Of a stretch of DNA of 64,000 nt, positions 14,770 to 42,222 are shown piece after piece (within the stretch, counting starts at the first letter, position 1; each line of letters begins with the position of its first letter). Below the pieces are notes generated by a model. It worked only from the letters and a program-made list of their open reading frames with translations. It was not told the origin of the DNA and did no database searches. The stretch is from Planctomycetota bacterium (GTDB lineage Bacteria > Planctomycetota > UBA1135 > GCA-002686595), in assembly GCA_016220085.1 (NCBI GenBank), contig JACRIN010000025.1, positions 1 through 64,000 on the forward strand, written 5' to 3'. The translations under genes were made by a program, and so were the position numbers.

Positions 14770-18162
<3,393 letters not shown>

Positions 18163-31826: not shown

Positions 31827-34082
31827 TCACTTCGTCGGCCAGCTCGCCGGCATCCAGTCGTCGAGGTCCGCGACCTGCTTGCGCGCCTCCGCCGAGACCG
31901 GAACGCCCCAGGCCTGGAAGTAGGGCCCGAGGTCCTTCCCGACGGCGCGCGAGAGGCGCACCATCCACTGGTCGCGCTTGTCGGCCTCGGTCTTCGGCCG
32001 CTCGGCGTCCGGGAGCGCCGCGTACTCCGCGAAGACCGCGCGGAAAGGCTCCCAGCCGAACTCCGCTTGCACCAGCAGATACGTCTGCAGCGCGAGAAAC
32101 GGATCCTCCTTCCATTCCTCGAAGCGCGCGCCGCGCTCCAGGTAGGCGGCGATCGACGGCGGCGAGCTCACCGCGTCGTGCCCGCGGCGTCCGGGCGCGA
32201 GCTTGCACGTCTTCTCGATCGAATACACCGAGAACAGGTTGTTGGTGACTTCGCCGGTGCCCTCGAACGTCCAGTCGTCGACCTGGAGGTTGTGGCCGAG
32301 CTCGTGGACGAAGCCCCAGATCTCCTCGCCGGTCTCGAGCCGCGCGCGGTCGACGACGACCTCGGCGACGTCGAGGTGCGCCATGATCGGATAGCCGGAG
32401 TGCATGTAGCCGCCGGCGATCTGTCGATCGAGCACGAAGCGCTCCGGCCGCGGCCGCGCGGCGGAGATGCCGGCGAGCTCGGCCTCCGCATCGAGCACGC
32501 GATCCCAGAACACCATCAACGACTTCGGATCGTCGAGCTCGCGCACGACGCGCGAGGGGACGGTGATCACGAGCTTCGAACTCGCGAGCTCCGCCCACGG
32601 CCCCGGCCGACGCCGCTGCGTGCGCCATTCGTCGTTGCCGGTCTCGCCGAGCACGTAGAGCGGCGCCTGGATCGCGCCGCGAATCACCAAGCGCACGCGT
32701 CCGACGCGCTTGCCCTCGGGCGCGACGACGTACACGAGCCCGCCGAACGGATTGGCGGCGGTCGTGCTCTCGGCGGCGAGCGCGAACTCGCGCGTGATCG
32801 CGGGCATGCGGCGCCACGCGTCGTGATCCCAGAGCTCGTCTTGGTGCGCGCCGAGGCGCACGCGGAGTCCGGCGGCGGTGACCTCGCTCGGCAACTGGAC
32901 GACGATGCGCGCGCCCGGATTCGCCCAGAGACCGGTCGAGTGCCAGCCGGGCACGTTCAAGTCGAGCTCGAGCGACTGCAGCGTGCTCTCCGCGGTGACC
33001 GAGCCCGGAAAATCCGCCGCGGACGCATGCGGGCGCGTCGAATCGGGCGGCACGCGCGAGAGTTGGATCCACTGCGCGGACGCGAGCGCGCGGAGCAACG
33101 GCTTGTCGGGCCCGAGCGGCTTCGCTTCGGAGGCGACGAGCTCGCGATCGCGCTCCTTGACGAGCCGCGCGAGGCGATCGCCGAACGGCGTCGCGACGTC
33201 GGGCAGCGCGCGCGCCGCGAAACCGACGGTGAACGACGCTCGAGCGAGCTCTTCCGCTTTCGCGCGCGGCTTGCCGGCGTTGGCGATCAGGAGATCGAGC
33301 GCGCTGTCGCCGTTCAGCAGCGCCAGCGGCTCGCCGTCGATCGCGAAGCCGCGCGCGTGCGTGCGCTCGAGGTAACCGAGCGTGAAGGCGAGCCCGTGCT
33401 TCGCGAGCCAGATCTGGATCGGCTGCGCGCCGAGCGATTCGTCGGCGTGGAGCTGCTGCCAACCCCAACCGGTGTCGCAGCCGAGCAGGCCGCCGCCGCG
33501 CTCGACGAACGCCTGGAGGCTCGCCATGTCGGCGTCGGAGAGGCCGAGCAGGGTCGTCGCGACGACGTCGACCTCGTCGAGCTTCGCGAACGCGCCGCGC
33601 CCGTCGAGCTCGCGCGGCGTGAAGCCCGCGAGCCGGACAGCTCCCGACCAACCGCCGGTGACGCCGATGCGCGGACGCTCGGCCTTCGGCGCGAGCCAGT
33701 GGATCGCGTTGCGCACGAAGAGCGTCGTGTCGCCTTCGCGCAGCGCGTCGGTCGACGCGTAGCCCGAGTGCGCGAGCAGGAGCACGCGTCCGCTGGCGAC
33801 GCGGGCGGCGGCGGCGGCGGACGCGCGGTGCTCGCCGTCGACGCGCCCGGCGACGACGGTGAACGCTCGCTCGTCGAAGACCGCGATCGGCCCGGGCACG
33901 CCGGGCGCCGCGATCGTGTGCACGCCGTCGAGCAGCGCGTCGAGATCGCCGCGCTCTTGCGCGACGGTGGGGGCGGCCAACGTCGCGAGCGCAGCCAGTG
34001 TGAACGGCGCGAACGCGCCGACTCTCGACACGGCGACACCGCTCGCGGCGACGCTCGCGAGCCAAGCTCTGCGGATGCTCAC
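31827..34082 (-). CDS. Secreted M60-like (enhancin-family) metallopeptidase, TCAF-like layout
   Basis: This is a 751-residue exported protein. The GTG at 34082 places a signal peptide (LASVAASGVAV...PTVAQ) at the N-terminus. Residues about 50-260 form a glutamine-amidotransferase-like alpha/beta domain (RVLLLAHSGYAS, GGGLLGCDTGWGW). The C-terminal part is a peptidase M60 domain with the zinc motif HELGHNLQ at 593-600 and the following Glu in FEGTGEVTNN. This order of domains resembles animal TCAF (FAM115) proteins. Bacterial M60 enzymes cut mucin-type O-glycoproteins. Open sequence upstream of the GTG overlaps the sigma-factor gene and is not counted. The gene lies 65 nt after a tandem pair of sigma-factor genes on the same strand. 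Confidence 0.82.
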   Translation of the reverse strand: MSIRRAWLASVAASGVAVSRVGAFAPFTLAALATLAAPTVAQERGDLDALLDGVHTIAAPGVPGPIAVFDERAFTVVAGRVDGEHRASAAAAARVASGRVLLLAHSGYASTDALREGDTTLFVRNAIHWLAPKAERPRIGVTGGWSGAVRLAGFTPRELDGRGAFAKLDEVDVVATTLLGLSDADMASLQAFVERGGGLLGCDTGWGWQQLHADESLGAQPIQIWLAKHGLAFTLGYLERTHARGFAIDGEPLALLNGDSALDLLIANAGKPRAKAEELARASFTVGFAARALPDVATPFGDRLARLVKERDRELVASEAKPLGPDKPLLRALASAQWIQLSRVPPDSTRPHASAADFPGSVTAESTLQSLELDLNVPGWHSTGLWANPGARIVVQLPSEVTAAGLRVRLGAHQDELWDHDAWRRMPAITREFALAAESTTAANPFGGLVYVVAPEGKRVGRVRLVIRGAIQAPLYVLGETGNDEWRTQRRRPGPWAELASSKLVITVPSRVVRELDDPKSLMVFWDRVLDAEAELAGISAARPRPERFVLDRQIAGGYMHSGYPIMAHLDVAEVVVDRARLETGEEIWGFVHELGHNLQVDDWTFEGTGEVTNNLFSVYSIEKTCKLAPGRRGHDAVSSPPSIAAYLERGARFEEWKEDPFLALQTYLLVQAEFGWEPFRAVFAEYAALPDAERPKTEADKRDQWMVRLSRAVGKDLGPYFQAWGVPVSAEARKQVADLDDWMPASWPTK

Positions 34083-34147: not shown

Positions 34148-36697
34148 CTACTTCCGGATCACGTTGACCTTGCCGGCCTCGAGCTCGACCGGGATCGTCA
34201 GCAGCACGTCGCCGTTCGACTGCACGACCAGAGCGCTCGCGGTGTCGCACACCGGAAAGACGCCGGTGCGCCGTGTGTCGTCGAAGCGTGCCTGCACGGC
34301 GAGTCCGAGGAGTGTTCGTTCGAGCTGGCGACCGCGGACGTCGACCGGGACGACGTCCATGTCCATCGGTTCTAGCCCAGGTCCGCACGCGGCTTCCGAG
34401 AGCTCGACTCGCACGAAAGCGACGCGCGGAAGGACGATCTCGACGTTCTCCCGGTCCGTCACGTTCGCCAGAGACTTGCGGCCCGCGAACCAACGTGCCG
34501 ACGGAGGCTCCGCGCGAAGGCTGCGGAGTTCGAGTCCGACGCCGTTCAGTTCGAAGCGGCCGTCCGAGTCCGTGAGCACCGGCCGCGACGCGCCGATGCC
34601 GTACAGCGTGGCCGCCTCGAAGCGCTCGAGCCAGTCTGGCGCTGTGGCGTCGAGCGTCACGAGCGCACCCGCGATCGGGGCGCCCGAGGAGTCGACGACG
34701 CGGCCGGCGACGCGTCCCTCCGAGTTCGTCGTGTCGATCACGAGCTCGACGCCGCTCGACCCCGCTTGGACCGGCTCGGAGAGCGCCCAACGCTGCCGCT
34801 GCCGGTCGAACGCGACGACGCGGTAGGCGCGCGGCTGGAGCTCGCGGAGCTCGAAGCCGCCTGCAGCGTCCACGTCGACGTGCGTCCATGGGGTGCGACC
34901 GGCGGCGAGCTGCTCCCAAGTGCAATCGCCTGAAGCGTCCAAGTAACCCTCGCCCATCCTCGTCACGCCCCAAGGTGTACCGTCGAGCACATCGACCCAC
35001 GCATCGGTGAGCGGACGTCCCTGCTCGTCGACGACGCGGCCACGCAACTTGGGAGCCGGGCGATCGAGTCGCACGACGAGCGGCTCCGGCCAGCTCGCGG
35101 CGAGCGTCGAATCGCCGGTCGGAGTCAACGTCACCAGCTCGCGGCCGCTCGCTCCCGCCGTGATCACCATGTCCGGCTGTCCGCGGAACAACGGGAACTC
35201 GAAAGCGCCGCGCGCGTCGCTGCGCACTTGCGGGAAGACGCGCATCGAGCGGCCCGGCGGTCGCTGCTTCGGCACGAGCATCAGGAACGCGCCCTCGATC
35301 GGCTGCTCGCGCTCGTCGACGACGACTCCGTGGAGCACGAACGCGGGCGCATCGTCGTAGGCGAAGACGATGCGGCCACTATTCGCGCGCAGGTCGCCGA
35401 GGGTGGCGTGGAACACGATGGAGCTCCCGCGCCGCGTCGCGCGGACGCCGAGGTCATGCACGAGCGGTGCATCGTCGAAGCGGTAGGACCCGTCGGCCGC
35501 GCTCACCGTCGCCCGCGCGATCGACGGCAGATCATGCGTCGGCACCGGGAGGGTTCGGAGGCCTCGGAGCTGACCGAACTCGACGCGCACGCCTCCGAGC
35601 GGTACGCCGTCCGAGTCGACGACGACGCCGAATAGTGGTTCGCGTGCGGCCACACAGACGACGCGGTCGCACGGGAGAGCGAGCGGGCCGATCGGCGCGG
35701 CGCCGAGCGTGAACCACCGCTCGCCGAGCGCGCGCAGCGAGCCCGAGACCGCCGGCTCGACGAACTCGAAGCGCCCGTCGGCGCCGCTCGTCGCGACGAG
35801 ACGCGCGCTTGCGTCGAGCTCGCCTTCCGCGACGAAGCCGACTTCGACATCGGCGACCGACTTCCCGTCGGCGTCGAGCACGAGGCCGGCGAGCTTCGTG
35901 CTCGGCGCGCTCTCGGGTGTGGCGGGTTCCGCAGTCGGTGCGACGACCTCCGCGCGCTGCTCGTGCGCACTTGACGGCTCCGCCGCGGCGAAATCACCCT
36001 TCGGCGCCTCGAGCGGCGTGCTCGCGCGCGTGTCGCTCGACGGCGACCCCACGTTCGAGCTCCACGCGTTCCAACTCCACCACGCGAGCAGCAACACCGC
36101 CGTCGCGGCACCGATCTTCGTCACCGTCTTCACGATCGCGAGCTCCATCCAGGGGACTTCCATGGGATGGACCCACGCCGCCGTCGCCGCCAGCCACTTC
36201 TCGCGCCCGCCGCGTCGATCGAGCCGCTCGCGCAGGCGCGACCGCGCGCGTGCGAGCCGCGATTCGACCGTCGCGAGCGGCACGCCGAGTCGCTCCGCGA
36301 TCGCGCGCGGCTCGAGCGCGTCGAAGTAGCGCAGGCGCACGACCGTGCGAAACGGCTCGTCGAGCTCGCGCACTTCGTCCACCAGCGCGGCGACCAGCTC
36401 GAGCCGCTCGAGCGACTCGTCCGCTTCGACCGCCTCATCGCGCGCCGCGGTCCGCTCGCGAGCGCGCCGCCGCACGCTGCGCCGATGGCGATCGACGGCG
36501 AGCCTGCGGACGACCGCGCGCAACCAGTGCGGCAGGATCGCCGGCTCCGGCCGACGCTCGAGCGCCGCGGTGAACGCCTCTTGGACGACGTCCTCGGCGG
36601 CGTGCGTGTCACCGAGCAGCGCCGCCGCGAGCCGGCGCAGCGCGTCGCGCTGACCGGCGAACTCGCCCGCGGCGTCGATGGGCTGCATGGGTTCCAT
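34148..36697 (-). CDS. Transmembrane ECF sigma factor with carboxypeptidase-regulatory-like repeats (copy 1)
   Basis: This 849-residue protein joins an ECF sigma factor to an external region. Sigma-2 (AALLGDTHAAEDVVQEAFTA, about 25-45) and sigma-4 (RAIAERLGVPLATVESRLAR, about 131-150) occupy the first 160 residues. One membrane helix lies at about 194-210 (IGAATAVLLLAWWSW). After a Ser-, Pro- and Glu-rich linker there are about five carboxypeptidase-D regulatory-like beta repeats, each with a VxGxVxDxxGxPxxGAxV-like core. Residues 1-213 align without gaps to copy 2. The start is ATG 36697 by that alignment; a second in-frame ATG nine bases later (36688) has the better spaced GAGG. No separate anti-sigma gene is adjacent. 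The protein would have to be cut to release the sigma part, which is inference. Confidence 0.85.
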   Translation of the reverse strand: MEPMQPIDAAGEFAGQRDALRRLAAALLGDTHAAEDVVQEAFTAALERRPEPAILPHWLRAVVRRLAVDRHRRSVRRRARERTAARDEAVEADESLERLELVAALVDEVRELDEPFRTVVRLRYFDALEPRAIAERLGVPLATVESRLARARSRLRERLDRRGGREKWLAATAAWVHPMEVPWMELAIVKTVTKIGAATAVLLLAWWSWNAWSSNVGSPSSDTRASTPLEAPKGDFAAAEPSSAHEQRAEVVAPTAEPATPESAPSTKLAGLVLDADGKSVADVEVGFVAEGELDASARLVATSGADGRFEFVEPAVSGSLRALGERWFTLGAAPIGPLALPCDRVVCVAAREPLFGVVVDSDGVPLGGVRVEFGQLRGLRTLPVPTHDLPSIARATVSAADGSYRFDDAPLVHDLGVRATRRGSSIVFHATLGDLRANSGRIVFAYDDAPAFVLHGVVVDEREQPIEGAFLMLVPKQRPPGRSMRVFPQVRSDARGAFEFPLFRGQPDMVITAGASGRELVTLTPTGDSTLAASWPEPLVVRLDRPAPKLRGRVVDEQGRPLTDAWVDVLDGTPWGVTRMGEGYLDASGDCTWEQLAAGRTPWTHVDVDAAGGFELRELQPRAYRVVAFDRQRQRWALSEPVQAGSSGVELVIDTTNSEGRVAGRVVDSSGAPIAGALVTLDATAPDWLERFEAATLYGIGASRPVLTDSDGRFELNGVGLELRSLRAEPPSARWFAGRKSLANVTDRENVEIVLPRVAFVRVELSEAACGPGLEPMDMDVVPVDVRGRQLERTLLGLAVQARFDDTRRTGVFPVCDTASALVVQSNGDVLLTIPVELEAGKVNVIRK

Positions 36698-36786
36698 CCT
36701 CGTCTGCCCCGGAATCGCCGCAAGCCCGAACGCCATGCCCGCAATCTCCGAAAACCGGCGCCGCGGCCCGGCGCGCTCGACGCGGG

Positions 36787-39318
36787 CTACGGACGCACGA
36801 TCGTCAGTCGCGTCGGATCCGGCGTGAACGGGATGCGGCGCGTCTCGGCCTGTCCGTCGGCGCTGCGGCCGACGACGACGTCGATCGCGGTCGCCCGTTC
36901 GCTGACGACGAACGCCTGGGTCCGTCCATCGACGACCCAGACGCCGCTGGTCGATCCCGACGCTCGGCCCGCGGGCAGAGTCACGTAGCCGGACGACGCG
37001 TTCGGGTCGACGGGCAGTGCGAAGTCGGCCTCGATCCCGGAGCCGCGCAAGTCGAGCTGCACGATGCAGGGGAGCGGCGTGACGAGCTCGAGGTCGCGTC
37101 GATCGCCGCCGCCGCCGTCACCACCGCCGGCACCGTCGTCGAGCTCGAGCGTCGTCGCCATCGAGGTGCCGCGCGGGACCGCCCAGATCCGCGCCGCGCT
37201 CGCGTCGACACCCTCGAAGAGGAAGCGGCCATCTGCGTCGCTGAGGTGTCTCGCGCCGATCCACAGACTGCCCCGCGCATCGCCCGGCTCGCGATTCTCG
37301 TAGGCCGACTTGCGCAGCAGGCGCACGTCCGCGCCGATCACCGGCCGACCGCGCGCGTCGACGACTCGCCCGGCCAGCGTGCGTGCGCGTTCGGGTCGGA
37401 CGAGCCGCAGCACGAGATCGGTCGAGCCGGCGTCGAACGCAGCGCTCGTGAAGCACACCAGCGTGCGCGGATCGAACACGCGCAGGCGATACGGGCGGTT
37501 GCGCAATCCGCGGAGCTCGAAGCGGCCACGTTCGTCGGTGACGAGATCGGTGTCGCCGGGGCCGGCGCCGCCGAGCAGGCGCTCGACCGAATGCTCGTAC
37601 GTTCCCGCGCGTTCGCTCCACGTGCGGATCGGTTCGCGGTCGACGTTTTCGAGCTCGATCCCCGCGCACGGTTGCCCATCGGCGTCGACGACGACGCCGG
37701 ACAGCGTGAGCGCGCGTTGCGCGAGTCGCAGTTCGATCGGAGCAGCGTGCGCGTCGGCCGCGAGCTCGCGCTCGAGCGGCAGGTAGCCCGGCGCGAGCGC
37801 GATCAGCCGCGTCGCAGGTGTGCTCAGAAGCAGCTCGAACTCGCCGCGCGCGTTGGTCGGTTCGCTGTTCTCTCTGGCCGCGCGCCCGGTCCACACGTGT
37901 GCGTCGGCGACCGGTGCTCCGTCGGGGTCCAGCACGTGGCCGAACAGCGAGCGCGCGTCGCGCACGCGCGGCTTCAACACGATCGTCAGCGTTCCGGTTT
38001 GCGCTTCGAAGAGCTCGCGACGCTCCTCGACGAAGCCCGGCGCGCTTGCGCAGAGCTGCGCCGGCCAGAGGTCGGGCGCGGCGTCGATCTCGAAGTGCCC
38101 GTCGTCGTCGGTCGCGGCGCGCGGCCGCACGTCGGAGCTTTGCGAGACGTCGTGCAGGAGCTCGTAACGCAAATTCGGGCCGCTGAGTTCGACCGAGGCG
38201 TCGACCACCGGCCGACCCTCCGGATCGACGACGCGACCGGCGACCGGCATGCGCGGCGCGACGACCAACGTGCACTCGTCGCCGCCTTCCTTGCCGATCC
38301 ACGGCTCGAGCACGGTGGTCCAGAGCGGCGTGTCGACGTCGAGCACGCACGCGCTCGTCGGCCGCGCGAGCGTGAACCGCCCGTCCGCCGCGCTCGAAGC
38401 GGCGAAGCCGGCGAGCGCGGGCTCGCCGCGCCGCGCACGCGCGACGATCCGCACGCCGGCGACCGGGCGAGCGTGGGTATCGATCACCAGCCCGAGCAGT
38501 CGTCGTTCCGTCGCGCCCGTCACGCTCGCCGCGCTCGCCGTCGCTGCGACGCTCGATGCGGCGGCTGGTTCGGGCAGCGAGGTGCGCGCCGCGCCGTGCT
38601 CCGCTTCGTCCGGCGGGGTCTCCGGTCGCGCGAGCACCGCGGGGCTCGCTCCCGCGACCGACGACGGCGTCGCGTCCGGACTCAGGATCCACCAACCAAG
38701 CCAAACGAGCAGCACGGTTGCCGCTGCGATACCGATCTTCATCGACGTCTTCATCAGCGCGAACTCCATCCAAGGGACTTCCGTCGGATGGACCCACGCC
38801 GTCGTTGCCGCCAGCCACTTCTCGCGACCGCCGCGTCGATCGAGCCGCTCGCGCAGGCGTTCGAGCGCGCGCACCAAGCGCGACTCGATCGTGGCGAGCG
38901 GCACGTCGAGCGTGCGTGCGATCTCCCTCGGGCTTCGCCCCTCGAAGTAGCGCAGGCGCAGCGCGGTGCGATAGGGCTCGTCGAGCTCGCGCACTTCACG
39001 CGCGAGCGCTTCGACGAGCTCGAGCTGCGCGAGCGAGTCCTCGCCGTCGACGCTCTCGTGTCGCGCGGCGGCACTCTCCCGCGCGGCCCGTCGCGCGCCG
39101 CGGCGCTTGCGGTCGAGCGCGAGCTTGCGCACCACCGCGCGCAGCCAACTCGCGACGCCGTCGGGCCGCCGCTCGCGCGCGAGCACCGCGGTGAAGGCGT
39201 CTTGCACGACGTCCTCCGCCGCGTGTGCGTCGCCGAGCAGCGCCCGCGCGAGCCGCTTCAACGGTTCGCGTTGGCGGTCGAGCTCGCTCGCCCAATCGAT
39301 CGGCTGCATCGGATCCAT
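36787..39318 (-). CDS. Transmembrane ECF sigma factor with carboxypeptidase-regulatory-like repeats (copy 2)
   Basis: This is an 843-residue tandem paralogue of copy 1, 89 nt upstream of it. Sigma-2 has ARALLGDAHAAEDVVQDAF (23-41); sigma-4 has REIARTLDVPLATIESRLVR (131-150). The linker REKWLAATTAWVHPTEVPW (165-183) is nearly the same in both copies, which suggests a function such as a protease or partner site. A membrane helix at about 195-213 (KIGIAAATVLLVWLGWWIL) is followed by an Ala- and Pro-rich linker and about five beta repeats (GLVIDTHARPVAGVRI, GRVVDPEGRPVVDASV, GHVLDPDGAPVADAHV, GVVVDADGQPCAGIEL, GRVVDARGRPVIGADV). The external halves are much less alike than the sigma halves. Gene order suggests both are transcribed with the M60-like peptidase gene. 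Confidence 0.86.
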   Translation of the reverse strand: MDPMQPIDWASELDRQREPLKRLARALLGDAHAAEDVVQDAFTAVLARERRPDGVASWLRAVVRKLALDRKRRGARRAARESAAARHESVDGEDSLAQLELVEALAREVRELDEPYRTALRLRYFEGRSPREIARTLDVPLATIESRLVRALERLRERLDRRGGREKWLAATTAWVHPTEVPWMEFALMKTSMKIGIAAATVLLVWLGWWILSPDATPSSVAGASPAVLARPETPPDEAEHGAARTSLPEPAAASSVAATASAASVTGATERRLLGLVIDTHARPVAGVRIVARARRGEPALAGFAASSAADGRFTLARPTSACVLDVDTPLWTTVLEPWIGKEGGDECTLVVAPRMPVAGRVVDPEGRPVVDASVELSGPNLRYELLHDVSQSSDVRPRAATDDDGHFEIDAAPDLWPAQLCASAPGFVEERRELFEAQTGTLTIVLKPRVRDARSLFGHVLDPDGAPVADAHVWTGRAARENSEPTNARGEFELLLSTPATRLIALAPGYLPLERELAADAHAAPIELRLAQRALTLSGVVVDADGQPCAGIELENVDREPIRTWSERAGTYEHSVERLLGGAGPGDTDLVTDERGRFELRGLRNRPYRLRVFDPRTLVCFTSAAFDAGSTDLVLRLVRPERARTLAGRVVDARGRPVIGADVRLLRKSAYENREPGDARGSLWIGARHLSDADGRFLFEGVDASAARIWAVPRGTSMATTLELDDGAGGGDGGGGDRRDLELVTPLPCIVQLDLRGSGIEADFALPVDPNASSGYVTLPAGRASGSTSGVWVVDGRTQAFVVSERATAIDVVVGRSADGQAETRRIPFTPDPTRLTIVRP

Positions 39319-39532
39319 CCTTGCGTGCCTTTCGCTTGCCGCAAGGGGCCCTCGCCTGGCGGGTTTCCCGAGAAACTCGCTGGGGCCCGATGCTCGCCGC
39401 GCGCGCAGTCGACTCCTCGAGCGTCGTGTCGTTCGGACGTGCGATCGTGCTCCGGCGCCTGCTGCCCGAGCCTCCCGACGGCGCCGGCGACGATCGTACG
39501 TCGACGAATTCGGATCGAGCCGGCGGCGCGCG

Positions 39533-41704
39533 TCAGTGCGCGAACGCGTGCCCCGGAACGTCGGTCTCCGTCTTCTTCGGCACGCGCCAGCGCAGCGAGA
39601 GACCGAAACTGCCGGTCGCGTTGAAGTAGGCGAGCTTGAAACGGTGCAGGCCGGCGAAGAGGCCGACCGTGCCGTGCTTCGTGCTCATCCCGTGCAAGCC
39701 GTCGTGATCGACGACGAGCCGATCGTCGATCCACAAGCGCGCGCCGTCGTCGCTCGCGAGCGCGAAACGGAAGAGCCCGGTGTCCGGCGCTTGGATCAGA
39801 CCCTCCCAGCAGAGCGCGAAGTGCTCGTTTCGCGTCGCGGGCGCGAAGTCGAGCACCGGCGTGACTCCGGTCGCGACCGGCGTCGCGCGGTCGAGGTCGA
39901 CCAGGCTCTGCCAGCCGCCCTCGAAGTAGCTCCAGTTCAAACCGGGATCCGGCGCGCGCACGAACACGGTGCCGGGCAGCAGGTCGCTCGGCGTCAGCCG
40001 CCTGAACTCGGCGCGCGCGATCGCGCTGGTGGCGCCGTCGCGCGACGCGACGACCGAGAGCGTGCAGGCTTCGGTCAACGTCAGCGGCCGCGGCAGCTCG
40101 GGCGAGCTCGCGGTCGGATCCGAGCCGTCGAGCGTGTAGCGGAGCGTCGCACCGGCGTCGTCGCACATCACGCTCACCGCGAGCGGCTCGTAGAACTCGC
40201 GCTCCTCGGTCGCGATCGAGACCTTCGGCGGCGCGGCGTAGAGACCGACCTCGGCGAGCAGCGGTTCGCCGCGCGCGCGCAGGATCTCGAGCTCGAGTTT
40301 GGTCGCGCGCGTCGTCGGGATGCGCACGATGCGCTTGCGGCCGATCGTCGTGCCGCGCGCGAGCTCGCGCCGCTCTCCGGTCGCTTCGTCGAGCGCCGAG
40401 AGCGTGAACGCCTCGACGCGCTGGCCGAGCGCGATCGGCTCCGAGAGCACGATGCGGTTGAACGCGCGCTCGCCGCCGAGGTCGAGCGCGAGCCTCCCGT
40501 CGCGCACGCCTTCGCCCGCCGCCCAGTACGTCGTGCGATCGCCGTCGAGCACGCGCGCCGCATCGCAGCCGGGTCGCGTCGAGCTCGCGCTCGCCCGCGC
40601 GCCGACCGCCAGGTCGCGCGCGAACGTCGCGTCGATCGCCGCACGCAGCTCCAAGAGCCGCGCCGCGTCGTGCTCGTGCACCAGCCCGCGCCGATCGACC
40701 GGCAGGTTGAGCAGCAGCGCCGCGTTCCGTCCGACCGAGCCGTACCAGATCTCCTCCAGCGCCTCGAGCGACTTGACGTGCTCGTCCTGCTCGGCGTGGT
40801 AGTACCAACCCGGACGGATCGAGACGTCGCACTCCGCGGGGATCCAATCGGTGCCGTCGATCACGCCTTGATTGAGCATTTCGACCGGCGGTCCGCCCTC
40901 GCCGCGCGCGTAGCCCTTCGGCGAGAGCATCGACCAACACGTGTCGCCCGCGAAGCCGCCTTCGTTGCCGACCCAGCGCACGTCGGGCCCGATGTCGCTG
41001 AAGATCACGGCGTCGGGCTGGAGCTCGCGCACGAGCTTGGTGAAGCGCTCGAAGTCGTAGACCTGGCGCTTGCCGTCCGGACCCTCGCCGCACGCGCCGT
41101 CCCACCAGACCTCGAAGACCGGCCCGTAGTTCGAGAGCACTTCGCGCAGTTGGTTCGCGTAGTAGTCGTTGTACGCGGACGAGTCCCCGTAGAGCTCCGA
41201 GTTGCGATCCCACGGCGAAAGGTAGACGCCGAACTTCAGGCCGAACTCGCGACACGCGTCGGAGAGCTCGCGCAGTACGTCCCCTTTGCCGTCCCGCCAA
41301 TTCGAGTTCGCGACGTCGTGCTCGGTGTACGCCGACGGCCACAAGCAGAAGCCGTCGTGGTGTTTCGCGGTCAGGATGATCCCTTTCATCCCGGCGTCGC
41401 GCGCGACGCGCGCCCATTGACGGCAATCGAGCGCGCTCGGCGCGAAGAGCTTCGGGTCTTCCGTGCCCGTGCCCCATTCGGCGCCGGAGAACGTGTTCAT
41501 GTTGAAGTGCACGAACGCGCAGTACTCGAGCTCCGACCACGCGAGCTGCCGCGCGCTCGGCAACGGCGGCACGGGCTCGGGCGGACGCGCGTCGTCCGAC
41601 GGCGCGCGACATCCGAGCGCGAGCAAGACCAGCGGGAGCGAGATCCGCGGCAGCAACGTCCGCGGGAGCAACTGGAGCGGCGCGACGCGGAGCGAGTTCG
41701 GCAT
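39533..41704 (-). CDS. GH29 alpha-L-fucosidase lipoprotein with discoidin and PA14 domains
   Basis: This is a 723-residue lipoprotein (lipobox LALGC, Cys32). The GH29 barrel spans about 50-390; conserved parts are GIILTAKHHDGFCLWPS and FEVWWDGACGEG, where Asp202 is at the position of the catalytic nucleophile. It is followed by an F5/8 type C (discoidin)-like domain (about 400-525, ARASASSTRPG ... ILRARG), a chitobiase-C-like strand block (TLRYTLDGSDPT) and a PA14-like domain near the end (GLFRFALASDDGARLWIDD). These modules probably bind the glycan. The enzyme is expected to release L-fucose outside the cytoplasm. It is monocistronic and lies 4 kb before the fucose importer genes. Confidence 0.88.
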   Translation of the reverse strand: MPNSLRVAPLQLLPRTLLPRISLPLVLLALGCRAPSDDARPPEPVPPLPSARQLAWSELEYCAFVHFNMNTFSGAEWGTGTEDPKLFAPSALDCRQWARVARDAGMKGIILTAKHHDGFCLWPSAYTEHDVANSNWRDGKGDVLRELSDACREFGLKFGVYLSPWDRNSELYGDSSAYNDYYANQLREVLSNYGPVFEVWWDGACGEGPDGKRQVYDFERFTKLVRELQPDAVIFSDIGPDVRWVGNEGGFAGDTCWSMLSPKGYARGEGGPPVEMLNQGVIDGTDWIPAECDVSIRPGWYYHAEQDEHVKSLEALEEIWYGSVGRNAALLLNLPVDRRGLVHEHDAARLLELRAAIDATFARDLAVGARASASSTRPGCDAARVLDGDRTTYWAAGEGVRDGRLALDLGGERAFNRIVLSEPIALGQRVEAFTLSALDEATGERRELARGTTIGRKRIVRIPTTRATKLELEILRARGEPLLAEVGLYAAPPKVSIATEEREFYEPLAVSVMCDDAGATLRYTLDGSDPTASSPELPRPLTLTEACTLSVVASRDGATSAIARAEFRRLTPSDLLPGTVFVRAPDPGLNWSYFEGGWQSLVDLDRATPVATGVTPVLDFAPATRNEHFALCWEGLIQAPDTGLFRFALASDDGARLWIDDRLVVDHDGLHGMSTKHGTVGLFAGLHRFKLAYFNATGSFGLSLRWRVPKKTETDVPGHAFAH

Positions 41705-41736
41705 GCGCGCATTGTGCGCGCCGGCCGCGTTCCACA

Positions 41737-42222
41737 CTAGCCGCCGCGCGCGCGCCGCTCTTCCAGCGTGCGCTCGTAGTCCGCGAGCTGGGCCCGATCC
41801 TTGGTCCGGGTCAGCAGACGCTTGATCGCAACCAGCTCGGCGAGGTCGAGCACCTGGACCCGCAAGCCATCGTGGAGATCGGCGCGCGGCGCATGCACGA
41901 CGAGGTCCGGATAGCTCCTCCCTCCGACGATCTCGCCGAGCACGTCGAGCGGCCCGCAGCGCGTCATCAGCAGATGATGGCCGGGCAACATCAGGTCGCG
42001 CGCGATGGGCTCGAGGCGTTTCGGCAAGTGCTGTCGATAGCATGCGTCGAGGCCGCGCAGCGCAACCGCCAGGCGGCCGGCGTTCTCCGGCTCACGGGCG
42101 GGGACGATGTCGATGTCGAACGTGTTCACCGGTACGCCGTGCAGGACAGCGGCGACTCCGCCCACGAGCACGTACCGGACGTCCGCGTCCTCGAGCGCGG
42201 TCAGGATCGCTCGGAAGTCCAT
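41737..42222 (-). CDS. Nucleotidyltransferase-fold protein (MNT/AbiEii-like)
   Basis: This is a 161-residue protein of the polymerase-beta-like nucleotidyltransferase superfamily. The active-site signature is present: VLVGGVAAVLHGVPVNTFDIDIV, in which GG is followed about a dozen residues later by Asp-Ile-Asp. The C-terminal half, with DLAELVAIKRLLTRTKDRAQLADYE, is the helical region typical of AbiEii/DUF6036-like proteins. Such proteins are often toxin or antitoxin halves of two-gene modules. It overlaps by 22 nt the end of a small gene on the same strand, which is consistent with such a pair. No activity can be assigned. Confidence 0.75.
   Translation of the reverse strand: MDFRAILTALEDADVRYVLVGGVAAVLHGVPVNTFDIDIVPAREPENAGRLAVALRGLDACYRQHLPKRLEPIARDLMLPGHHLLMTRCGPLDVLGEIVGGRSYPDLVVHAPRADLHDGLRVQVLDLAELVAIKRLLTRTKDRAQLADYERTLEERRARGG

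Follow-up and report, generated by a model that had tools for sequence, protein, structure and literature searches.

Fusions of an ECF sigma factor to a membrane helix are already known. In IutY of P. putida, one chain combines an ECF sigma factor, a membrane helix, and an external part, and cleavage by Prc and then by RseP yields an active sigma fragment of ~23 kDa (PMC5411451). The actinobacterial groups ECF48, ECF52, and ECF53, exemplified by SCO4117, carry a membrane-spanning C-terminal regulatory extension, for which proteolytic activation has been proposed (PMC8999054). Within the Planctomycetota, ECF57-like groups join an ECF sigma factor to a long beta-rich C-terminal extension. The two genes analysed here, A and B, lie in a 64,000-nt stretch of a planctomycete genome (the window) and were described in an initial annotation as sensor, anchor, and sigma factor in a single chain. 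This is still the best reading of them and has its precedent in IutY, but the layout is not unique to this pair nor, with IutY and ECF52/53 already on record, categorically new.

Genes A (36787..39318, 843 aa) and B (34148..36697, 849 aa) are arranged in tandem on the minus strand, and their reading frames are intact. For B, the listed start at 36736 was replaced by 36697: in the closest relative (L067), the ATG corresponding to 36736 lies in another frame, whereas the MxPMQPID start is kept. Sigma70_r2 and Sigma70_r4_2 scored over the Pfam cut-off in both proteins, while sigma region 3 had no Pfam match in either, which places them among the ECF sigma factors. Matches to CarboxypepD_reg cover four to five stretches of A (4e-36) and four stretches of B (1e-27). 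Hydropathy predicts a single hydrophobic helix C-terminal to sigma4 on the same chain in each protein, at residues 195-213 in A (Kyte-Doolittle 1.97) and at about residues 186-207 of the corrected protein in B (1.77), with no further segment above 1.55. In A, sigma2 (residues 18-76) and sigma4 (104-155) are followed by a signature helix (163-176) within a juxtamembrane stretch that comprises the signature (GGREKWLAATTAWVHP) and the linker to the membrane helix (residues 155-185; 38764..38856, minus strand). The membrane helix itself (38680..38736, minus strand), placed by the hydropathy maximum and the flanking charges, has Lys at its sigma side and is Trp-rich at the opposite end; beyond it lie an Ala/Ser/Pro-rich linker (~215-270) and a beta-sandwich ectodomain (272-843). 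Pfam and hydropathy thus agree with the annotated order of sigma-2, sigma-4, one helix, and external repeats, the repeats numbering four to five rather than about five.

The sigma module matches the ECF sigma structures SigW, SigE, and SigL in both sequence and fold, including structures bound to an anti-sigma factor or to the polymerase. An AlphaFold model of A, built from six sequences only, is moderately confident in the sigma region and shows beta-sandwiches from residue 273 onwards, many blocks of which have a pLDDT of ~80-90. Foldseek searches with the whole model retrieved surface sandwich proteins (pilins, alpha-2-macroglobulin) with low TM-scores, as would be expected of beads on a string. 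A built-in latch could not be discerned in the model: helix 182-211 and the linker are of low confidence, and the model speaks neither for nor against such a latch.

The A/B pair is no isolated oddity, but one tandem pair out of a large family in this planctomycete lineage. The genome to which the window belongs has 69 matches to sigma-70 region 2; among 39 of these sigma proteins that were extracted, 19 have a membrane helix, so that at least 19 genes share the sigma-helix-ectodomain layout, and CarboxypepD_reg was found in 17 of 20 family members scanned there. A profile of the sigma-linker-helix region matched up to 69 times per genome in 40 relatives, many of which have 20 or more matches, although at the threshold used (E <= 1e-15) these counts can include some soluble close relatives. 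Across a sample of the phylum, 45 of 199 genomes gave a match at 1e-40, and one distant genome had 56 matches at 1e-30. When the best match per genome was inspected (n = 29), both sigma regions were always present and CarboxypepD_reg was found in 27. Chance or an assembly artefact can be excluded for the layout of A and B, since these genes recur in further genomes that were assembled independently. An ECF group number may already have been given to the family (main classification, Casas-Pastor 2021); a literature search brought up no paper that connects planctomycete sigma factors to carboxypeptidase regulatory-like domains, which does not prove that none exists. Two divergent receptors in G000, at L011:885-1940 (C61) and L014:918-4517 (C108), differ in their longer linker and in their sigma subgroup, and possibly stem from an independent fusion.

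The initial annotation had noted a nearly identical juxtamembrane linker in A and B and proposed that it be sought in other planctomycetes. In an alignment of 78 members (19 from the window's own genome, 29 from relatives, and 30 distant), sigma4 is immediately followed by the signature GxRxxWxxALxPLA throughout the family. Its Trp (Trp168 in A) is present in 71 of the 78, a proportion somewhat biased upward because the relatives were picked by a profile containing this stretch, and its information content equals that of core sigma residues. The spacer that follows is variable (median of 37 residues from D160 to the helix). A membrane helix (KD >= 1.6) is found in 77 of the 78 members, with Lys the commonest residue at its sigma-side end and Trp at the other. 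Based on this pattern, the GxRxxWxxALxPLA helix may be a built-in latch. Among 20 sigma proteins of the same genome that lack the helix, the signature occurs only in a soluble close relative, a 225-aa sigma factor of the same family that has the signature Trp (L015:5961-6635) and whose gene lies ~1.5 kb upstream of a full receptor gene.

Downstream of B, after a gap of 65 bp, follows a gene for a secreted M60 metallopeptidase (31827..34082, minus strand; Peptidase_M60 2e-64, M60-like_N), which by its position is probably part of the same transcription unit as the receptors. Upstream of A, Pfam identifies an alpha-L-fucosidase with F5/8-type and PA14 domains on the same strand (39533..41737). 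The operon-like order of fucosidase, two to three sigma receptors, and secreted M60 peptidase is found in all four genomes of the genus that were examined, namely in the window, G001 (L091), G002 (L095 and L089), and G003 (L068/L090), each of the three relatives having a fucosidase orthologue upstream of the receptors. In G002, the set is split over two contigs (L095 and L089), each with part of the order, and in G003 one extra gene is inserted. G002 seemingly has three tandem receptors (U, A, and B): on one contig, A is closely preceded by the end of a U-type gene, and the fucosidase and U are on another (L067:1-120; C213/C26, L095 and L089). The U copy is present in three relatives and absent from the window.

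Before the start codons of the receptor genes, ~40 bases are conserved (window 39319-39360, L067:150-192, L068:5960-6003); they contain the short inverted repeat CTTGC-G-GCAAG, and an AAGG directly abuts the ATG. An operator or an RNA element is a possible role for this block. No conserved autoregulatory promoter could be assigned in front of the receptor genes.

According to the initial annotation, this layout beside an M60 peptidase is not known to have been described. M60 peptidases were rejected as general partners of the receptors, since M60 occurs only at the A/B locus among the loci examined. Other receptor genes of the same genome have unrelated neighbours, encoding M14 and C25 peptidases, M48, an FG-GAP repeat protein, a kinase, and DNA gyrase A. 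At one locus (L080:4704-15149), the receptor gene is flanked on one side by a Ser/Thr kinase gene and on the other by one encoding a 957-aa protein of carboxypeptidase-regulatory-like repeats, in which no sigma domain was detected.

No anti-sigma domain was found in 20 scanned genes, most of them immediate neighbours of receptor genes, which bears out the annotated absence of a separate anti-sigma gene near A and B. The same genome does encode seven zf-HC2 anti-sigma factors; five of them have an ECF gene of the non-receptor kind at a distance of no more than 0.7 kb, and none is near a receptor gene. The search for an RseP-type protease, likewise suggested by the initial annotation, was also successful: the genome encodes an RseP-like M50 protease in which the HExxH and LDGG motifs are present and a long insert separates the two halves. 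It further encodes S41 proteases, including CtpA/Prc-like ones. RseP and S41 proteases are common to most bacteria, and their presence is therefore weak evidence for release. Within the window, a long protein encoded at 14770-18162 has an S41 protease domain (tricorn or C-terminal-processing type) at 17539-18009.

In L067, whose copy A is 82% identical to that of the window, the tandem copies have exchanged sequence. Their DNA is 98% identical over codons ~178-206 and 90% identical over codons 149-178, whereas a comparison of copy A between L067 and the window gives only 75% over codons 178-206. Outside this tract, the orthologues of L067 and the window are the closer pair. These values point clearly to gene conversion having homogenised the linker and helix of the L067 copies. 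Thus, the near identity of the linkers in A and B, which is real and part of a family-wide signature, is not by itself a sign of functional constraint, because recent tandem duplication and the conversion seen in L067 confound it.

The external halves had been annotated as diverged, which understates the difference. In all four genomes, the sigma halves of A and B are sisters and fall into a single clade (support 100). The ectodomain of A, in contrast, resembles that of B no more than it resembles the ectodomains of unrelated members; its best non-orthologous match, a receptor in G027, has 35% identity, which is the same level. From this comparison, an ectodomain may have been swapped. In G001 and G003, B-type ectodomains are joined to sigma halves that resemble A more than B. 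A test for separate histories of sigma halves and ectodomains among the B orthologues was suggestive only, its AU p of 0.07 being compatible with the simpler history. The pattern is suggestive of a constant output module combined with exchangeable sensors.

We consider it fairly probable that A and B are one-component, membrane-anchored ECF sigma factors activated by proteolytic release, and by analogy with IutY such release is the likely activation route. The elements of this proposal with sequence support are the domain content, the single helix, the absence of anti-sigma genes, the conserved operon, and the presence of proteases. The N-terminal sigma2-sigma4 module would reside in the cytoplasm, with the helix oriented N-in/C-out, and the GxRxxWxxALxPLA helix, together with the flexible spacer and the membrane helix, would keep sigma poorly active at the membrane. 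Outside, the four to five carboxypeptidase-regulatory-like (transthyretin/CnaB-like) sandwiches would sense a ligand or the state of the envelope. Upon a signal, an external protease might trim the ectodomain, after which a site-2 protease of the RseP type could cut the membrane helix, freeing a sigma fragment of ~20-22 kDa that would programme RNA polymerase. Its predicted targets include the receptors' own operon with the secreted M60 peptidase and the fucosidase, which may serve in the breakdown of fucosylated glycoproteins.

Alternatively, sigma might act while tethered, without any cleavage, if a ligand shifted the juxtamembrane helix or an oligomer and thereby exposed sigma to RNA polymerase. 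The conserved Trp helix between sigma4 and the membrane helix is a fitting place for such a conformational switch, and the C-terminal extensions of ECF41 and ECF42 are thought to act by conformational change or protein contact (PMC8999054). Still, we consider tethered switching unlikely, as a single helix with a long Ala/Ser/Pro-rich outer spacer would make a poor relay and is a typical protease-accessible layout, an anchored sigma factor would have to find its promoters at the membrane, and IutY, the nearest tested analogue, undergoes cleavage (PMC5411451).

Lower in probability is the view that anchoring serves constitutive storage or envelope attachment, and that the expression level or phosphorylation sets activity instead of an external ligand. 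Control by Ser/Thr kinases has been predicted for planctomycete ECF groups (PMC8999054), detergent-soluble fractions from a planctomycete were found to contain ECF sigma factors (PMC8567305), and in L080 a kinase gene is located just upstream of a receptor gene. However, this is the only locus with a kinase neighbour among those scanned, and family members vary most in their ectodomains, with conserved sigma halves, as would be expected of sensors. It is very improbable that tandem duplication left A, B, or both as decoys or without function. Recombination between the sigma halves of the copies and the absence of U from the window would fit such decay, but the reading frames are uninterrupted in the different genomes, the core sigma residues of A and B are conserved in the family alignment, and A and B both persist in two genomes, with ectodomain identities of 84% (A) and 63% (B).

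If A and B are receptors activated by release, some planctomycetes may sense their surroundings largely via one-chain sigma receptors, of which a genome can hold up to several dozen, without partner anti-sigma genes. With their conserved fucosidase/M60 operon as a predicted target, the tandem genes lend themselves to a compact test, and the Trp of the signature helix offers a single-residue handle on sigma silencing without an anti-sigma factor.

Compared to the described systems, A and B are most similar to IutY (ECF243), with which they share the combination of an ECF sigma domain, a single membrane helix, and an external portion on the same polypeptide. The external portion of IutY, however, is a cell-surface-signalling anti-sigma domain and cooperates with a siderophore receptor in the outer membrane, whereas A and B have external carboxypeptidase-regulatory-like repeats, no partner gene, no Pfam match to a FecR-like periplasmic anti-sigma domain, and dozens of family copies. 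With ECF48/52/53 they share a membrane-spanning C-terminal extension, which in SCO4117 also includes an external binding region. The actinobacterial extensions differ in holding a zinc-finger anti-sigma part, which Pfam did not detect in A or B and which is missing from the families listed for the relatives, in having one or two helices, and in the fold of the ectodomain. The ECF57-like groups have WD40-like repeats in some members in place of the transthyretin/CnaB-like sandwiches of A and B; WD40 repeats were without a Pfam match in A, B, and the families listed for the relatives. We tentatively suggest, as a possibility short of an expectation, that these genes represent a planctomycete receptor class with up to several dozen members per genome, in which sensor, anchor, latch helix, and sigma form one chain and recombination within tandem arrays pairs near-constant sigma modules with exchangeable ectodomains. 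Such a class would do in planctomycetes what TonB-linked sigma/anti-sigma or hybrid two-component systems do in Bacteroidota.
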